Shown: piece after piece, positions 11,436 to 20,437 of the stretch
Layout: each line of letters starts with the position of its first letter
How positions within the stretch are numbered: position 1 is the stretch's first letter
Origin: Candidatus Magnetaquicoccus inordinatus
GTDB lineage: Bacteria > Pseudomonadota > Magnetococcia > Magnetococcales > Magnetaquicoccaceae
NCBI RefSeq assembly: GCF_004217665.1
Contig: NZ_RXIU01000012.1
Coordinates: 1 to 36,168 of the forward strand
Length of the DNA stretch: 36,168 nucleotides
Reading direction: 5' to 3'
Program-made: the position numbers and the translations under genes
The notes under the pieces: model-generated
The model's database searches: none
What the model saw: only the letters and a program-made list of their open reading frames with translations
What the model was told of the DNA's origin: nothing

Positions 11436-11996
11436 ATGTTGGCCAAACAGGTGTTGCATTTTCGTGAGCTGTTGTTTCAGGAGGGGATCTTGTTCTGTTA
11501 CAGCGGCTATATGACTGAGGAGATCCTCTCCAGTATCGGTAATACACTCAAACAAAAGATGGCTTTGGACAAAACAGACAAAAATATTGCCCGAGGTGTC
11601 TTCACTTTGTTTGTTGAACAGGTACAAAATGTGATTCGCTACTCCTCGGAGGTGGAGCCCATTGAACGAGGCGATGGGCAAGCGGATGTGGAGTTGCGTT
11701 ATGGTTTGTTGACCATCGGACAGAAGGAAGGACGCCATTTTGTCTCTTGTGCCAACATGATTGCCCGTCAGGATGTGGAGCGGTTGCGCGGCAATTTGAC
11801 AAAAATTCAAAGCATGGACCGGGAACAACTTAAAGCCTTTTACAAGGAGGTATTGCGCGGAGCCACTCCAGAAGGGAGCAAGGGAGCGGGGGTAGGGTTT
11901 GTCGATATCGCCAGACAGGCGACGCATGGCTTTCAATTTGATTTTCATGATGTCAACGAAGAGTACGCCTATTTTTGTCTGAAGGCCTTTATTTAG
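11436..11996 (+). CDS. siaB: SiaB-family protein kinase (DUF6272)
   Basis: A GHKL-type serine/threonine kinase of the SiaB family, which phosphorylates the small partner protein SiaC. Visible features are the N-box-like FVEQVQNVIRYSS (59-71, with E61 and N65) and the G-box-like SKGAGVGFVDIARQA (148-162). Both suit a stripped-down ATP-binding domain. Length (186) is typical. AAGGAG lies 7 bases before the ATG. It is the first gene of a probable operon with the SiaC-like gene 24 bases downstream, then an HD-GYP enzyme and a PP2C phosphatase. In Pseudomonas aeruginosa, SiaA (PP2C) and SiaB set the phosphorylation state of SiaC, which controls the diguanylate cyclase SiaD. The same logic is inferred here with a different output enzyme. 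Confidence 0.85.
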   Translation: MLAKQVLHFRELLFQEGILFCYSGYMTEEILSSIGNTLKQKMALDKTDKNIARGVFTLFVEQVQNVIRYSSEVEPIERGDGQADVELRYGLLTIGQKEGRHFVSCANMIARQDVERLRGNLTKIQSMDREQLKAFYKEVLRGATPEGSKGAGVGFVDIARQATHGFQFDFHDVNEEYAYFCLKAFI

Positions 11997-12020
11997 TCAG
12001 TGTAATGAGGAAAGCAAGCC

Positions 12021-12401
12021 ATGGAAACTATTCACGTCGAAGCGACAGAGCGTACTCCAGAGATTCATTTTGACTTTGCACGCAACCATTTTGCCATCCG
12101 CGGTGAATCCTATCCTGAGGATGTGGCCGAATTTTATGGTCCAAAAGTCAGATCTTTGGCAGCGCATGTCGGGCAACTGCAGGGCGCCTCTATCGAATTT
12201 CATTTTGAGCTGATCTATTTTAACAGCAGCAGTGCCAAGGTTTTGATCGGCCTGTTTGATCTGTTGGACGAGGCGGCAGAAAAAAATCAGGTAGAGATTC
12301 AATGGCACTATGAAGCGGATGATGCCAACATGGAAGAGTTGGGTGAGGAGTTTGGTGAGGATGTTTCCCATGCCACTTTTCGCATGGTGGCGAAGGACTA
12401 G
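12021..12401 (+). CDS. siaC: SiaC-family regulatory phosphoprotein (DUF1987)
   Basis: A small cytoplasmic partner-switch protein. The family core is intact: an opening IHVEATERTPEIHFD, the GESYPEDVAEFYGP segment (28-41), and FELIYFNSSSAKVL (62-75). In SiaC the phospho-acceptor is a Thr in the YFN-T/S-SS motif, so Ser69 is the likely site here (inferred by position). Length (126) matches the family. GAGGAAAG supports the start. It lies between the kinase gene and the HD-GYP gene and should be phosphorylated by the upstream SiaB-like kinase and dephosphorylated by the PP2C protein encoded two genes on. Its unphosphorylated form would be expected to bind and control an enzyme in the operon. Confidence 0.88.
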   Translation: METIHVEATERTPEIHFDFARNHFAIRGESYPEDVAEFYGPKVRSLAAHVGQLQGASIEFHFELIYFNSSSAKVLIGLFDLLDEAAEKNQVEIQWHYEADDANMEELGEEFGEDVSHATFRMVAKD

Positions 12402-12444
12402 ACCCTTTTGCCATTGTGTGGCTTTGTACAATCAGTGAGGCCCT

Positions 12445-14514
12445 ATGCTGGATTATGATACTTTTCAGCCAGAACAAACGGTGATTGATCAGGCTGAAAT
12501 GTTGCTGGCCAAAAAAGAGGAGGGGCAGGACTATTCTGCTGCTTTTGCGCACCTTCTTGAAGATTATAAACGCCTGTTCAAGGTGTCGCGGCGCCTGGTG
12601 CGCATGAGCGACCGCAGTGATGAGGTGCTAAAGCTGGCCAATGAAAAGATCAAGACCCAACAAGCCGAACTGGAAAAGGCGCATTACAAGCTGGCACTGC
12701 ATGCCGAGACTTTAGAAGAGCGGGTCAAGGAGCGCACCAAGGAGCTGGTCACCTCCCAGGGACGTTTGCATCGCCTGGTGGGGCTGGGCATTGCCCTCTC
12801 CATGGAGCGCAATCAGGCGCGATTTATGGAGATGATTCTGCAGGGGGCCAAGGAGTTGGCGACGGCAGATGGTGGAATATTGTTGGTACGCACTGCCGAG
12901 GAGCAGCTTTGTCCAGAGATTTTGTCGGTGGATACCTTGGAGCTGCGTTTTAATCGTGCCACGGATGATGAGGTCAGTGAACCGCCCTTGCCGATGCGCG
13001 ACCCGCAGAGCGGATTGCCCAACTATTTCAACCCGATGGTGCATGCAGCATTAACCAAGCGTACCGTGCAGATAGACAACTGTTATGAATCGACAGAATA
13101 TCAATTTACCGAATTGCACCGGTTTGATCGTGAGCACCAATACCGCTCTGTTTCCTTGTTGGCGGTTCCGCTCAAGCCGCGTCAGGGTGAGGTGATCGGG
13201 GTTTTGGTATTGATCAATGCGCGCAAGCCGCAAAGCGGGCGGGTGATCTCCTTCTCCGAAGAGGTGATCGGTTTTGTCGAGGCTCTGGCTGCCCAGGCTG
13301 CGGTGGCCATGGAGAATAAAAATCTTGCCGAGGCGCAAGAGCGCCTGTTGGAATCGATCATTCAATTGACGGCAACCGCCATTGACTATAAATCTCCCTA
13401 TACCGGCGGTCATTGTGAACGGGTGCCAGAGATTTGCATGGGATTGGCGCAGGCGGCCTGTGCGGCAGAAGAGGGTCCGTTTGCTGATTTTGAGATGAGC
13501 AATGAAGAGTGGCGTGCCTTTCGTTTGGCAGCATGGATGCACGACTGCGGAAAAATGACGACACCAGAATATGTGGTGGACAAGGCAACCAAACTGGAGA
13601 CCATCTATAATCGGATTCATGAGATTCGCACCCGCTTTGAGGTGTTGCGCCGGGATCGTTTGATTGCCTGTCTGGAGGGAATCATTCACAACCCGGCAGA
13701 GGAAGAGAGTCTGCGCCGTCGCTTTCAGGAGGAGTGTCGGCAGTTGGAGGATGATTTTGCTTTTGTTGCTGAGTGCAATGTGGGCGGCGAGTTTATGGCT
13801 CCCGAACGTCTTGTGCGTCTGGAGCAGATTGCCCAATTGCGCTGGACGCGGCATTTTAATGACCGTCTTGGCCTGTCGCATGCCGAATTGCAGCGTCTGG
13901 CCAAAATCGCTGTAACGCCTCTGCCTGCCCAGGAGCATCTGTTGTGCGATAAACCGGAGCAGGTTATTCCCCGCAACGACAAACAGGTCAGCAAGGATTT
14001 GCTGGTCTATGGGATCACCTTGGCCCCACCCAAGCATTTATACAACCTGGGAGAGATCTATAATCTGCGCATTGCGCGTGGCACTTTGACCGATGAAGAG
14101 CGTTTCAAGGTCAATGAACATGTGATCCAGACCATTATTATGCTGGAGCAGTTGCCTTTCCCCCCCCATCTGTCGCGGGTTCCAGAATTTGCGGGGTGCC
14201 ATCATGAAACAATGGATGGCAAAGGCTATCCGCGACAGTTGCATAAAAAGGATATGTCGATTCCGGCCCGCATTTTGGCGATTGCCGATATTTTTGAGGC
14301 ACTGACAGCGGCAGATCGTCCTTACAAAAAGCCGAAAACCTTGAGTGAAGCATTACGCATTATGAGCTTTATGCGCGACAGTCAACATCTTGATGCCGAG
14401 CTGTTTGATCTGTTTTTATCCAGTGGGGTTTGGCGAGAGTATGCGGAGCGCTTCCTGATGCCCAAACAGTTGGATACAGATGATATTTCCCGCTATTTGA
14501 GTGAGTTTGATTAA
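12445..14514 (+). CDS. GAF and HD-GYP domain protein, probable c-di-GMP phosphodiesterase
   Basis: A cytoplasmic HD-GYP enzyme predicted to hydrolyse c-di-GMP. Residues about 1-110 include a coiled coil with ERVKERTKEL. A GAF domain follows (about 115-290, ending in AVAMENKNL). The HD-GYP domain starts near 310 (TGGHCERV). The metal site HDCGK lies near 365-369. The GYP part HHETMDGKGYP lies near 585-595, followed by DIFEALTAADRPYK. All ligand motifs are present. About 160 extra residues separate HDCGK from the GYP part, compared with classical HD-GYP domains, as seen in one large GAF-HD-GYP subfamily. It follows siaC by 43 bases and nearly touches the phosphatase gene. In Pseudomonas this position belongs to SiaD, a cyclase, so the output here may be reversed in sign. 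Confidence 0.9.
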   Translation: MLDYDTFQPEQTVIDQAEMLLAKKEEGQDYSAAFAHLLEDYKRLFKVSRRLVRMSDRSDEVLKLANEKIKTQQAELEKAHYKLALHAETLEERVKERTKELVTSQGRLHRLVGLGIALSMERNQARFMEMILQGAKELATADGGILLVRTAEEQLCPEILSVDTLELRFNRATDDEVSEPPLPMRDPQSGLPNYFNPMVHAALTKRTVQIDNCYESTEYQFTELHRFDREHQYRSVSLLAVPLKPRQGEVIGVLVLINARKPQSGRVISFSEEVIGFVEALAAQAAVAMENKNLAEAQERLLESIIQLTATAIDYKSPYTGGHCERVPEICMGLAQAACAAEEGPFADFEMSNEEWRAFRLAAWMHDCGKMTTPEYVVDKATKLETIYNRIHEIRTRFEVLRRDRLIACLEGIIHNPAEEESLRRRFQEECRQLEDDFAFVAECNVGGEFMAPERLVRLEQIAQLRWTRHFNDRLGLSHAELQRLAKIAVTPLPAQEHLLCDKPEQVIPRNDKQVSKDLLVYGITLAPPKHLYNLGEIYNLRIARGTLTDEERFKVNEHVIQTIIMLEQLPFPPHLSRVPEFAGCHHETMDGKGYPRQLHKKDMSIPARILAIADIFEALTAADRPYKKPKTLSEALRIMSFMRDSQHLDAELFDLFLSSGVWREYAERFLMPKQLDTDDISRYLSEFD

Positions 14515-14515
14515 G

Positions 14516-17086
14516 ATGGTCAGGTTGGGGCGCATCTCCCTGCGCAGCACTCTCTCCTGGTTGCTGGTTGTGCTCAGTTCTTTGCTGAGCGCCTGGGGGG
14601 TCTTGTACCAGTATGAGCTGTCGGTGCGCCATCAACTGCATGAGGATCTGCAGGATGCGATGGTGGAGTACAAAAGCAAACTGGAAGGGTTGACCATCAA
14701 CAGTCGGGTGATGGGTGGGGCGATTTTGATGGGTATCATCAACGATGCCATCAAAAAGATGGCTGCAGAACAGTTGCCTGTCGATGCCCCAGAGGTGTTG
14801 AGCCTGTTGCGCTCCATGTTGGAAGAGTATGAGGCGGAAGATGTCTTTGTAGCCAATGCCAGTGGGATTATTGTTGCCTATCAGACAATGGCAGAGGGGG
14901 GGAAATCAGGAACGGGGAATAATATTGCTTTTCGTCCCTATTTTCGCCAGGCGATTCATGGCAAACCGAGCGTCTATGCAGCAGTGGGGACGACCAATAA
15001 CAAACGTGGTTTTTATTTTGCTGCACCGGTCTATGCAGCAGCGAGCCATCATTCCCCTGTGATTGGGGTGGTGGTGATCAAGGTCAGGCCGGATGCGGTG
15101 GATCGCTGGTTAAGCAGTGGCAACATGGAGCGTCTGCTCTTATCGCCACAAGGGGTGGTGTTTGCCGCCAACAAAGAGGAATATCTGTTTCGTTTTGTTG
15201 GAGCCATGAATGCGGAAATTTGGCAGGAGTTAAAGCAGGCACGACAATTTGGCAAGCAGTTTGAGCAACAGATGCCGCAACCATTGGCGATGGATCTCAA
15301 CAGCGAATGGATTCAGATTGCCGACCAGGAATATGCTCTGGCCCAGACCTCCATTGAGTGGCATGATCCCTTGGGAGCATGGAAGTTGGTGCTGTTGGAA
15401 GAGTTGACTGACAGGTTATCGACACGGCAACAGTGGCAGGTTTTTTTGTTCTCTTTTGCTCTGAGTTTATTATTGTTCAGTGCTGCTTGGATGGCTTGGC
15501 AAAATTTTCATGGCCGGCAACTGGAGACGCAAGCCAGATTGCAACTGCAAAATCAACTGGCCGACAAGATGCTTTTGCTGGAGACAGTGATCGGCAATCT
15601 GCAGCAGGGGTTGGTCGCTTATGATAGTAATTTGCAGTTGATTTTATGCAACTATCGTTTCAAGGAGTTGCTGGAGGTGCCGGACCATTTGTTGCAACCC
15701 GGCAGCAATTTCCAGGAGCTGTTGCGTTATTATGTCATGCGCCAGGAGTTTGGTCCTGGAGATCCCGAACAGATTTTTCAACAAAAGATGGGGGTGTTGG
15801 AGGAGAGGTATCCCCATCAGTTTGAGCGTATGCGTCCCAATGGCACCATTTTAGAGATCAAAGGTGGGCCATTGCCGGGTGGTGGTTTTGTCAGCACCTA
15901 TTCCGATATTACCCGTCGCCGGCGTTCGGAACAGCAGATTCGCACGCTCTCCAGCGCTGTGGAACAGAGCCCGGTGGCGATTGTTATCACCGATCCCCAG
16001 GCACGCATGGAGTATGTCAATCCTGCTTTTTGTCAGACCAGCGGGTATACACCAGAAGAGCTGTTGGGACAACCGGCGGGGATGCTGCGTTCCGGTAAAA
16101 CGCCGACAGAGATCTATCAGGAGATGTGGCAGGCTTTGCATAAGGGTGAGGCATGGAGCGGGGAGCTGCTCAATTGCAAGAAGAGTGGGGAGCCCTTTTG
16201 GGAGTCGTTGACCATTGCGCCGATCCGCAATCAAGAGAATCAGGTGATCCACTATTTGGCCAACAAAGTGGATATTACCGAACGCAAAGAGGCCGATAAA
16301 CAACTGCGCAAAGCTCTGCAACTGATCTCCAGCAGTATACTCTATGCCAGCCGTATTCAACGCTCCATTTTGGCTCCGGATTGGTTGTTGTCCGCCGAGT
16401 TTCCCGATCATTTTGTGCTCTGGCGTCCACGTGATGTGGTGGGTGGCGATATGTATTGGCACCGGCCCTGGGTGACGGGTACTCTGTTGTTGTTGGCTGA
16501 CTGTACCGGGCATGGCGTACCAGGAGCCTTCATGACCTTGATCGCCAATGGAGCTCTGGATCAGGCCCTGTTGGAGACCCCTCCTGGTGATACTGCTACC
16601 CTGTTGCAGCGTATGCACAATCTGGTGCAATTTGCCCTGGGGCAGGATCGTGATGAGGGAGAAGCGGATGATGGACTGGAATTGGGTGTTTGCTTTCTGC
16701 AAGGTGATCAGCACAAGTTAACCTTCAGCGGGGCGCGCTTTTCTCTGTTTGTGGTCAAGGAAGAGAGCGTGGAAGAGATCAAGGGGGAGCGCAGCGGTAT
16801 CGGTTATCGACGGGTTCCTCGCCGTGTTACCTTTGCGACCCATGTGGTTGAATTGCATCCTGAGTGGGGCTACTATATGAGCTCGGATGGTCTGATTGAC
16901 CAGTTGGGTGGCGAAAAACGGCGGGCTTTTGGCAAACCGCGTTTTATGGAGCTGTTGGCGTCTCTGCGCCCTCTGCCCATGGTTGAGCATGGCCCTCGGA
17001 TCGAGCAGGCGTTGCTTGACTATCAAGGTCAAGAGGAGCGACGTGATGATGTTTCGGTCATCGGTTTTCGCGGGGTGATGGCATAA
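14516..17086 (+). CDS. Membrane Cache-PAS-PAS-SpoIIE/PP2C phosphatase (SiaA-like)
   Basis: A transmembrane sensor phosphatase, predicted to dephosphorylate the SiaC-like protein. An N-terminal TM (about 10-30) and a second TM (about 308-328) enclose a periplasmic double-Cache-like ligand domain. It is followed by a PAS-like domain (about 354-470, ending in DITRRR), a canonical PAS/PAC (about 475-600, ending in DITERK) and a SpoIIE/PP2C domain (about 610-856). The metal-binding acidic residues are intact: DVVGGDMY (near 640), ADCTGHGVPGAFM, SSDGLIDQ and RRDDVSVIGF. The ATG at 14516 is preferred. A GTG at 14501 would overlap the HD-GYP gene by 14 bases. P. aeruginosa SiaA has a HAMP linker, whereas this protein has two PAS domains, adding cytoplasmic sensing. 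Confidence 0.88.
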   Translation: MVRLGRISLRSTLSWLLVVLSSLLSAWGVLYQYELSVRHQLHEDLQDAMVEYKSKLEGLTINSRVMGGAILMGIINDAIKKMAAEQLPVDAPEVLSLLRSMLEEYEAEDVFVANASGIIVAYQTMAEGGKSGTGNNIAFRPYFRQAIHGKPSVYAAVGTTNNKRGFYFAAPVYAAASHHSPVIGVVVIKVRPDAVDRWLSSGNMERLLLSPQGVVFAANKEEYLFRFVGAMNAEIWQELKQARQFGKQFEQQMPQPLAMDLNSEWIQIADQEYALAQTSIEWHDPLGAWKLVLLEELTDRLSTRQQWQVFLFSFALSLLLFSAAWMAWQNFHGRQLETQARLQLQNQLADKMLLLETVIGNLQQGLVAYDSNLQLILCNYRFKELLEVPDHLLQPGSNFQELLRYYVMRQEFGPGDPEQIFQQKMGVLEERYPHQFERMRPNGTILEIKGGPLPGGGFVSTYSDITRRRRSEQQIRTLSSAVEQSPVAIVITDPQARMEYVNPAFCQTSGYTPEELLGQPAGMLRSGKTPTEIYQEMWQALHKGEAWSGELLNCKKSGEPFWESLTIAPIRNQENQVIHYLANKVDITERKEADKQLRKALQLISSSILYASRIQRSILAPDWLLSAEFPDHFVLWRPRDVVGGDMYWHRPWVTGTLLLLADCTGHGVPGAFMTLIANGALDQALLETPPGDTATLLQRMHNLVQFALGQDRDEGEADDGLELGVCFLQGDQHKLTFSGARFSLFVVKEESVEEIKGERSGIGYRRVPRRVTFATHVVELHPEWGYYMSSDGLIDQLGGEKRRAFGKPRFMELLASLRPLPMVEHGPRIEQALLDYQGQEERRDDVSVIGFRGVMA

Positions 17087-17131: not shown

Positions 17132-17545
17132 ATGGAAGAGGCCACAGATATATTATATTGGGATGATTCACTCGCCCTTGGGGTGGCTGAAATTGATGAT
17201 GACCATCGCAAACTGATCGGATTGCTTAATGAATTGGCCATCAATATCACTGCGCATCAGGCTCGTGAAGCTCTGGCGGTGGTGTTGGAAAATCTGCTCA
17301 ATTATACCGCTTGGCATTTTCGTCATGAAGAGCGCTTGATGCAGACCTATCGCTTTTCTGGTTATGTGGCACACAAACGGGAACATGCCGATTTGATTCG
17401 CGAGGCATCCGCTTTTCAGAAAAAATTTTTGGACGGTGAGCAGGATATGACCATGGACGTGGTGCATCTGCTCAAAGAGTGGGTGCTGCATCATGTCATG
17501 CAGACCGATCGGCAAATGGCAGAGTTTCTTGCCGAACATATGTGA
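17132..17545 (+). CDS. Bacteriohemerythrin (first of a tandem pair)
   Basis: A four-helix, di-iron, oxygen-binding protein. All seven iron ligands are present: H25, H62, E66 (in HFRHEE), H81, H85, H121 and D126. This fits a single-domain bacteriohemerythrin of normal length (137), likely to carry, store or sense O2. It starts 45 bases after the PP2C gene on the same strand and may be co-transcribed. The protein has no output domain of its own. It is clearly related to the next gene (shared NYTAWHFRHEERLMQ block). Confidence 0.93.
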   Translation: MEEATDILYWDDSLALGVAEIDDDHRKLIGLLNELAINITAHQAREALAVVLENLLNYTAWHFRHEERLMQTYRFSGYVAHKREHADLIREASAFQKKFLDGEQDMTMDVVHLLKEWVLHHVMQTDRQMAEFLAEHM

Positions 17546-17597: not shown

Positions 17598-18002
17598 ATG
17601 CTACAACAATTGCAATGGGATGCCAGCTATCATGTCGGTTTGGCAGAGATTGATGACGATCATCTGCGTTTGGTTGGTTTACTCAATGGTTTGATTGCAG
17701 GCTTGAATGAACAGGCGTCTGTGGAGAGAATTGCGGGTTTACTCAATGAGCTGGTCAATTATACTGCTTGGCATTTTCGCCACGAAGAGCGCTTGATGCA
17801 GAGCTATCGTTATCCTGAGTTTATCGCCCACAAACGCCAGCATACCCAGTTGATCGAGGAGGCCACTTCCTGTCAAAGCCGTTGGCAGAGTGAGGGGTTG
17901 CCGGTGGTGCAAACAGTGGTGGAGTTGCTGAAGGGTTGGTTGCTCAACCATGTTTTGATTGTGGATAAAATGTTGGCTGAATATTTGGCGGAGCGTATCT
18001 GA
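17598..18002 (+). CDS. Bacteriohemerythrin (second of a tandem pair)
   Basis: Paralogue of the preceding gene, 52 bases downstream. The full di-iron ligand set is present: H22, H59, E63, H78, H82, H118 and D123. Conserved blocks such as NYTAWHFRHEERLMQSY are nearly identical to the neighbour, while the intervening helices have diverged, so the duplication is not recent. Length 134. It is the last plus-strand gene before convergent cobQ. A weak AT-rich stem (about 18031-18047) with a short T-run lies 30 bases downstream. Probable role: O2 binding in support of the upstream signalling operon or microaerobic metabolism (inference). Confidence 0.93.
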   Translation: MLQQLQWDASYHVGLAEIDDDHLRLVGLLNGLIAGLNEQASVERIAGLLNELVNYTAWHFRHEERLMQSYRYPEFIAHKRQHTQLIEEATSCQSRWQSEGLPVVQTVVELLKGWLLNHVLIVDKMLAEYLAERI

Positions 18003-19852: not shown

Positions 19853-19930
19853 CCACCAGAGAACACAGGACAAGGAATGGATGCCGGAACCCGGCAAGTT
19901 GGAAATGTACCACAGAAGGAGAGGAAGTCG

Positions 19931-20437
19931 ATGGAAGCACAGTTGGGACCGTATGCCGACAAAGAAGCAATCATGCGGATTATTGAGGGGGCAGAACCCC
20001 ATGAGGCGCTGTTTTTGATTATCCGGGAGTTGTATGGTTTTGAAGGATTTGTCCGCTCCCTGAAAGAGCGCAAAAGCAGCTTTTTTACCCATGATTTAAA
20101 GGGTGGAATCATCCTCATGGATGGGGAGTTGGTGGTTTCCCGAGCGGATGTGGATGAGGATGGTCGTCCAGCCCCGGAGGGAAGTACACGCAGCTTTTCC
20201 TTTGCGGGTTGGTTTCCCGAATATATCTTCAAAAAGCTGCAGGAGAGCTTTTTGAAATTTGATATGCCGTTGGAGCTGTTTTATGTGACGACGCGCTACT
20301 ATCTGCATGATTATAAGATGTTTTCAGGTTTTATGCTCTTTTATCGCAGCATTTGCCTTGAGGTGTTACGCCATTTGACAGTAGAGCAGGCCCAGGATTT
20401 GGGTGGCAAGTTGATTGCCGCACACTGGCGTAGCTGA
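19931..20437 (+). CDS. Hypothetical cytoplasmic protein (168 aa)
   Basis: Not recognised. No signal peptide or membrane segment. The composition is balanced, with aromatic-rich stretches ([33 protein letters not shown]) typical of a folded globular domain. The start at 19931 is chosen because AGAAGGAGAGG lies just upstream, while an in-frame ATG at 19877 has no clear site. Codon use resembles neighbouring genes. The preceding 67-aa gene lies close upstream. Downstream is a hairpin (20450-20493) and a repeat-rich gap. Confidence 0.7.

Follow-up and report, generated by a model that had tools for sequence, protein, structure and literature searches.

A Sia-type phospho-switch predicted to act on an HD-GYP phosphodiesterase through a SiaD-like docking helix

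What does a SiaC phosphoprotein control when the gene beside it encodes, in the slot of the cyclase SiaD, an enzyme of the HD-GYP phosphodiesterase family? The question is raised by a 36,168-nucleotide stretch of DNA from Candidatus Magnetaquicoccus inordinatus, a magnetotactic-type bacterium of the Magnetococcales (RefSeq assembly GCF_004217665.1, contig NZ_RXIU01000012.1, positions 1 to 36,168; hereafter the window), whose source genome of 4.14 Mb is 95.7% complete in 546 contigs. Four open reading frames (ORFs) form one tight run on its plus strand, at 11436-11996, 12021-12401, 12445-14514 and 14516-17086, and encode a SiaB-like kinase, a SiaC-like phosphoprotein, a GAF-HD-GYP protein and a membrane SpoIIE phosphatase. 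These coordinates bear out the gaps of 24, 43 and 1 bases given in the original prediction for this DNA, and matches to GAF and HD_5 (E 2.4e-12 and 2e-46) confirm its statement that an HD-GYP enzyme occupies the cyclase slot. We consider it probable that a Sia-type Ser/Thr phospho-switch here controls the phosphodiesterase through a docking helix of the SiaD type.

In the crystal structure of the Pseudomonas aeruginosa complex, SiaC holds SiaD by its long helical stalk, at R74, K77, R80, S82, D83, R84 and Q86, and Thr68 of SiaC inserts beside S82 and Q86 (PMC8457831). The 689-residue HD-GYP protein of the window (12445-14514), the candidate SiaC target, starts with a helical stalk of about 120 residues, predicted as a short helix (residues 8-22) followed by a single 90-residue helix (residues 31-120; 12535-12804; AlphaFold2, mean predicted local distance difference test score 77). 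In the model, the stalk passes into the GAF domain (residues 125-290; 12817-13314) as one continuous helix. The SiaD stalk taken from 7e6g reads LRRLEKVARISDRYQQMMRDLN; the long helix of the HD-GYP protein includes LFKVSRRLVRMSDRSDEVLKLAN. Within it lies the predicted SiaC docking motif, RLVRMSDRSD (residues 50-59; 12592-12621), equivalent to SiaD 77-86: K77, R80, S82, D83, R84 and Q86 are matched by R50, R53, S55, D56, R57 and D59. Across 45 pairs of SiaC and neighbouring effector, R, S, D, R and Q or E occupy the equivalents of SiaD 80, 82, 83, 84 and 86 almost without exception, with any output domain. The docking positions are thus conserved in HD-GYP, GGDEF, class III cyclase and histidine-kinase partners, the peak falling exactly at the contacts S82, D83 and R84. 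On the other face of the predicted interface, the SiaC contact residues Tyr66, Asn68, Ser70, Asp80, Leu107, Glu110 and Asp114 are aligned with identical residues in P. aeruginosa. The comparison supports a SiaD-like stalk of the SiaC-binding type on the HD-GYP protein, and hence predicted docking.

Several observations weigh against this assignment. Some contacts are changed (R103 of SiaC to N103, D91 of SiaD to Leu64), and one motif is recognised in the HD-GYP stalk against two in SiaD. A profile built from HD-GYP stalks alone ranks 7e6g at E 2.7 among all Protein Data Bank (PDB) chains, beneath lamin and designed coiled coils, and its matches to Pseudomonas-type SiaDs are weak (E 1.9e-4 to 0.13). 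A phmmer search of the PDB with residues 1-128 of the HD-GYP protein gave no match. Of 38 stalk proteins with other outputs, the same HD-GYP-only profile picks up 31 at E <= 2e-5 and ranks almost nothing else. A broader profile of 21 rows, made from HD-GYP and other stalks with no Pseudomonas SiaD included, also recovers Pseudomonas-type SiaD proteins (E 7e-6 to 4e-9), the matches lying directly on the SiaC motif. We accept stalk homology because of such intermediate stalk proteins and of genome-wide co-occurrence with SiaC, not because of the PDB search alone.

For the latter, whole genomes were searched with the 21-stalk profile, which matches the window protein at E 6.8e-28. In a phylum sample of 299 genomes at least 90% complete, SiaC is found in 47 and the stalk in 40; all 40 stalk genomes have SiaC, and the stalk is seen in 0 of 252 SiaC-less genomes (Fisher test, 7e-43, uncorrected for kinship). 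Some of the SiaC genomes without a stalk call were inspected, and several proved to hold a Pseudomonas-type SiaD just below the genome-wide threshold; searched within the smaller set of loci, these SiaDs do match, on the SiaC motif. Presence of SiaC and of the stalk agrees in 39 of 41 relatives (30 with both, 9 with neither). To control for artefacts of coiled coils, we sorted 80 GAF-HD-GYP homologues of GTDB genomes by the presence of a stalk: siaC is adjacent to 8 of the 11 stalked proteins and to none of the 69 stalk-less ones (Fisher test, 6e-9), counting as adjacent the locus L177, where siaC lies about 2 kb off, beyond a second stalk gene. The stalked proteins with no adjacent siaC are L174, L175 and L240; genomes G010 and G012, which carry L175 and L240, encode siaC on a different contig, and a contig end lies near the start of both L174 and L240.

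These counts bear directly on the idea that the stalk is a generic signalling coiled coil, uninformative on SiaC binding, and that the genes are mere operon neighbours. Weak spurious profile matches are typical of coiled coils, as the ranking of lamin and designed proteins above 7e6g recalls. Yet bacterial genomes are generally rich in coiled coils and not one SiaC-less genome matched, stalk-less GAF-HD-GYP homologues never stand beside siaC, and conservation is highest precisely where the structure places the contacts. We regard this explanation as very improbable.

The remaining parts of the switch are in place, and the motifs of all four proteins are intact, as originally claimed. The SiaB-like kinase (186 residues; 11436-11996) belongs to the DUF6272/SiaB family (NF038262, E 1.1e-56, above cut-off; PF19788, E 5.8e-41), and in the alignment to 6kko (E 1.8e-19) its catalytic Glu61 falls on the P. 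aeruginosa SiaB glutamate. The SiaC-like phosphoprotein (126 residues; 12021-12401) matches PF09345, formerly DUF1987 (E 4.3e-39), and the SiaC chains of 6kko and 7e6g (E 7e-18). Its predicted phosphosite Ser69 (codon 12225-12227) falls on the position of Thr68, the phosphorylated residue of P. aeruginosa SiaC (PMC8457831). The last ORF (14516-17086), starting at ATG 14516 with GTG 14501 as a possible alternative, encodes a membrane Cache-PAS-PAS-SpoIIE phosphatase of PP2C type (PAS_7, PAS_9; SpoIIE, E 4.8e-16). Its dCache_1 match is sub-threshold, and its C-terminal 264 residues (594-857) are SiaA-like, matching the SiaA model NF038263 at E 5.2e-70, under the equivalog cut-off. SiaA, SiaB and SiaC all fall short of the Pseudomonas-type equivalog cut-offs (236.7 of 700, 98.9 of 225 and 88.4 of 150 bits, respectively). 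The locus combines a SiaB family kinase with its glutamate, a SiaC with serine at the 68 site and a SiaA-type SpoIIE protein nearby, the set by which we recognise a Sia partner switch. Promoter and terminator scans gave no more matches than in shuffles.

The HD-GYP catalytic region, which contains an internal insertion (residues 314-653; 13384-14403), has H366, D367, K370, H559, H586, H587, G594, Y595, P596 and D615, invariant among 16 homologues, and the predicted structure is nearest to the HD-GYP structure 4mcw (E 8.9e-16). Tyr319 is aligned with Glu185 of this tri-iron enzyme (PmGH), a residue that we take to bind the third metal. The signature KSPYT.GH is common to the window protein and the cyclic GMP-AMP (cGAMP) phosphodiesterase V-cGAP3, a close relative by sequence. 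Because of this signature and of the replacement of Glu185 by Tyr319, a two-metal centre is likely. The substrate could be cyclic di-GMP (c-di-GMP) or 3'3'-cGAMP. We take c-di-GMP as the prior substrate because the genome encodes many GGDEF proteins, but the missing Glu185-type ligand and the resemblance to V-cGAP3 make it less than certain.

In the mechanism that we propose from the gene set, motifs, stalk homology, co-occurrence and recurrence, SiaB would phosphorylate SiaC at Ser69, and the membrane SpoIIE phosphatase would strip the phosphate, on input from its Cache/PAS sensors and, probably, from two hemerythrins (oxygen). Unphosphorylated SiaC would bind the RxxRMSDR motif, clamp two parallel stalks and stabilise a parallel stalk dimer. 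The stabilised dimer would activate the GAF-HD-GYP enzyme and lower c-di-GMP (or another 3'-5' cyclic dinucleotide), and phosphorylation of Ser69 by SiaB would break the SiaC-stalk contact. Activation by unphosphorylated SiaC appears the most likely sign, given the unbroken helix from stalk to GAF in the model and the activation of SiaD by SiaC. The same docking might have the reverse effect: SiaC could inhibit (or recruit) the phosphodiesterase, so that the Pseudomonas sign is kept and unphosphorylated SiaC raises c-di-GMP. A stalk match speaks to docking rather than to its effect, and the SiaC contact positions are alike in messenger-making and messenger-degrading enzymes. SiaC is nonetheless known to stabilise the active parallel SiaD dimer (PMC8457831), and the modelled continuous stalk-GAF helix favours activation, if not decisively; inhibition seems to us unlikely.

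A different challenge to activation of the HD-GYP enzyme as the main role of this SiaC comes from the rest of the genome, which holds four stalk proteins. Besides the HD-GYP protein of the window, they are a class III nucleotide cyclase with PilZ (contig C257) and two SpoIIE phosphatases (C170 and C53), at L128 6820-8559, L129 1514-2596 and L130 5070-6113; these candidate extra targets could compete for SiaC. The operon SiaC might mainly serve them, with the phosphodiesterase as a secondary target or just one among several. The genome also has two siaB-siaC pairs, the second in a group with a SpoIIE phosphatase on C5 (L003 3797-9156), with PotD-like and outer-membrane-like genes in between; it has no stalk gene nearby, and its target must be encoded elsewhere. 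Moreover, in L177, from the Rhodospirillaceae metagenome-assembled genome (MAG) NORP116, a single siaB-siaC pair stands amid three stalk proteins (HD-GYP, histidine kinase and class III cyclase). On the other hand, the HD-GYP gene of the window lies 43 bases 3' of siaC, and the arrangement most often seen in Magnetococcales is SiaC beside HD-GYP. We give this alternative appreciable weight, though less than even: the HD-GYP protein, being adjacent, is the most likely SiaC target, and SiaC may have more than one.

The wiring from SiaC to HD-GYP set out in the original prediction is therefore upheld by the stalk match, the co-occurrence with SiaC and the conserved operon, and qualified in that the phosphodiesterase is maybe not the only target, given three other stalk proteins and a second siaB-siaC pair. 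Its tentative opposite sign would hold if unphosphorylated SiaC activates the phosphodiesterase. A SiaD-like GGDEF protein elsewhere, the finding that was to count against this wiring, did not turn up: among the 26 GGDEF domains of the 95.7%-complete genome, none has a stalk, none is on contig C24 and none is on a stalk-bearing contig. The portion of the genome absent from the assembly could still encode a stalked cyclase.

The arrangement is far from confined to the window. A siaC gene with a stalk-GAF-HD-GYP neighbour was found in 18 other genomes of the order, from 8 families, and also in Solidesulfovibrio aerotolerans and Desulfamplus magnetovallimortis (Desulfobacterota) and one gammaproteobacterial MAG. 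The suggested search for DUF1987 beside HD-GYP gave a positive answer, and the HD-GYP output is no one-off but common among SiaC loci of the order. We do not take the operon for a chance association because its gene set is found again in many genomes; in Desulfamplus, even the order B-C-HD-GYP-phosphatase is that of the window. A point on the opposite side is L063, which retains siaB-siaC-phosphatase-hemerythrin without the HD-GYP gene. The stalk-HD-GYP matches outside Magnetococcales come partly from magnetotactic or related lineages (Desulfamplus magnetovallimortis, Solidesulfovibrio); possible causes are horizontal transfer and sampling bias.

Over all collected loci, in a sample that is mostly Magnetococcales, the stalk is carried by HD-GYP (33), class III cyclase (12), GGDEF (11), histidine kinase (8), SpoIIE (6) and other (1) proteins; the stalk proteins of L026 and L145 are histidine kinases by Pfam. 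The idea of a SiaC tree that separates by output was rejected: output labels cluster, yet at least 21 label changes are needed. SiaC outputs thus appear to have been exchanged or lost repeatedly, on a tree in which many forks are weak. Because it is also found on GGDEF, class III cyclase, histidine kinase and SpoIIE proteins, the stalk looks like a portable SiaC plug. We see about an even chance that one phospho-switch family rules in this way at least five enzyme classes, several per cell, and that Magnetococcales SiaABC is an oxygen-linked hub that acts on two or more second messengers, c-di-GMP degradation being one of its arms.

Two further proteins extend the range of stalk-like N-termini. 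The 817-residue protein of Desulfamplus magnetovallimortis at L225 1314-3767 has such an N-terminus and, by eye, a metallo-beta-lactamase fold and cyclic-nucleotide-binding-like regions; it is possibly a sixth output class. At L028 1416-2024, a hemerythrin protein encoded after siaC begins with MEFDGFQIEQAVIDEGVLL, which matches the start of the HD-GYP stalk protein, and looks like a stalk remnant fused to hemerythrin after the rest was lost.

Hemerythrins also follow the operon of the window. The run probably continues, with gaps of 45 and 52 bases, into two plus-strand bacteriohemerythrin genes 3' of the phosphatase (17132-17545 and 17598-18002; NF033749, E 3.7e-37 and 1.6e-34), which we regard as probable input components. 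The sister genome L062 has its two hemerythrin genes at the corresponding position and one follows the phosphatase in L063, while L034, L056 and L061 have hemerythrin genes inside or beside the Sia genes. In L033 (10099-14844), a phosphatase encoded upstream of siaB-siaC-HD-GYP bears two fused C-terminal hemerythrin domains, the same parts as in three genes of the window. The link lies above background, the genome having 18 hemerythrin domains across its 4.1 Mb, and suggests oxygen (or a related ligand) as a signal to the phosphatase.

The closest known system is SiaABCD of P. aeruginosa (PA0172-PA0169), which likewise joins a SiaB kinase, a SiaC phosphoprotein, a membrane SpoIIE phosphatase and a stalked target in a tight operon. 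The window differs from it in having a GAF-HD-GYP target instead of GGDEF, Ser69 instead of Thr68, a Cache-PAS-PAS phosphatase, hemerythrin genes behind it and the gene order B-C-target-A. A phospho-switched adaptor also controls a c-di-GMP enzyme in the STAS partner switches HsbA/HsbD and BgrV/BgrR (named in PMC8457831), but there the adaptors are STAS-domain proteins and the targets GGDEF enzymes. The sigma-factor partner switches SpoIIAA/AB/E and RsbVWU similarly comprise a kinase, a SpoIIE-type phosphatase and a small antagonist protein, whereas here a sigma factor is absent and an enzyme bearing a docking helix serves as output. PmGH (4mcw) and V-cGAP3 (5z7c) share the catalytic HD...HHE...GYP core and fold, PmGH having Glu185 in place of Tyr319; we know of no SiaC docking stalk or siaC neighbour for either.

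In the literature searched, which left most subscription papers outside, we found no SiaC-HD-GYP system and no stalk common to several output classes; SiaC has been studied there solely as the activator of one Pseudomonas cyclase. DUF1987 comes up in a single paper of that literature, where such proteins are proposed to modulate their neighbours in general (PMC8457831), and a recognisable docking helix would give that proposal a testable molecular form. Such a helix predicts SiaC targets genome-wide, c-di-GMP-degrading enzymes included, and could be used in many uncharacterised genomes. The locus also offers a simple test case for how one adaptor switches enzymes of opposite effect.

Further along the window, at 19877-20437, lies an ORF whose 186-residue product has no Pfam or NCBIfam match; a similar ORF is found in the sister genome (L062 1034-1549).

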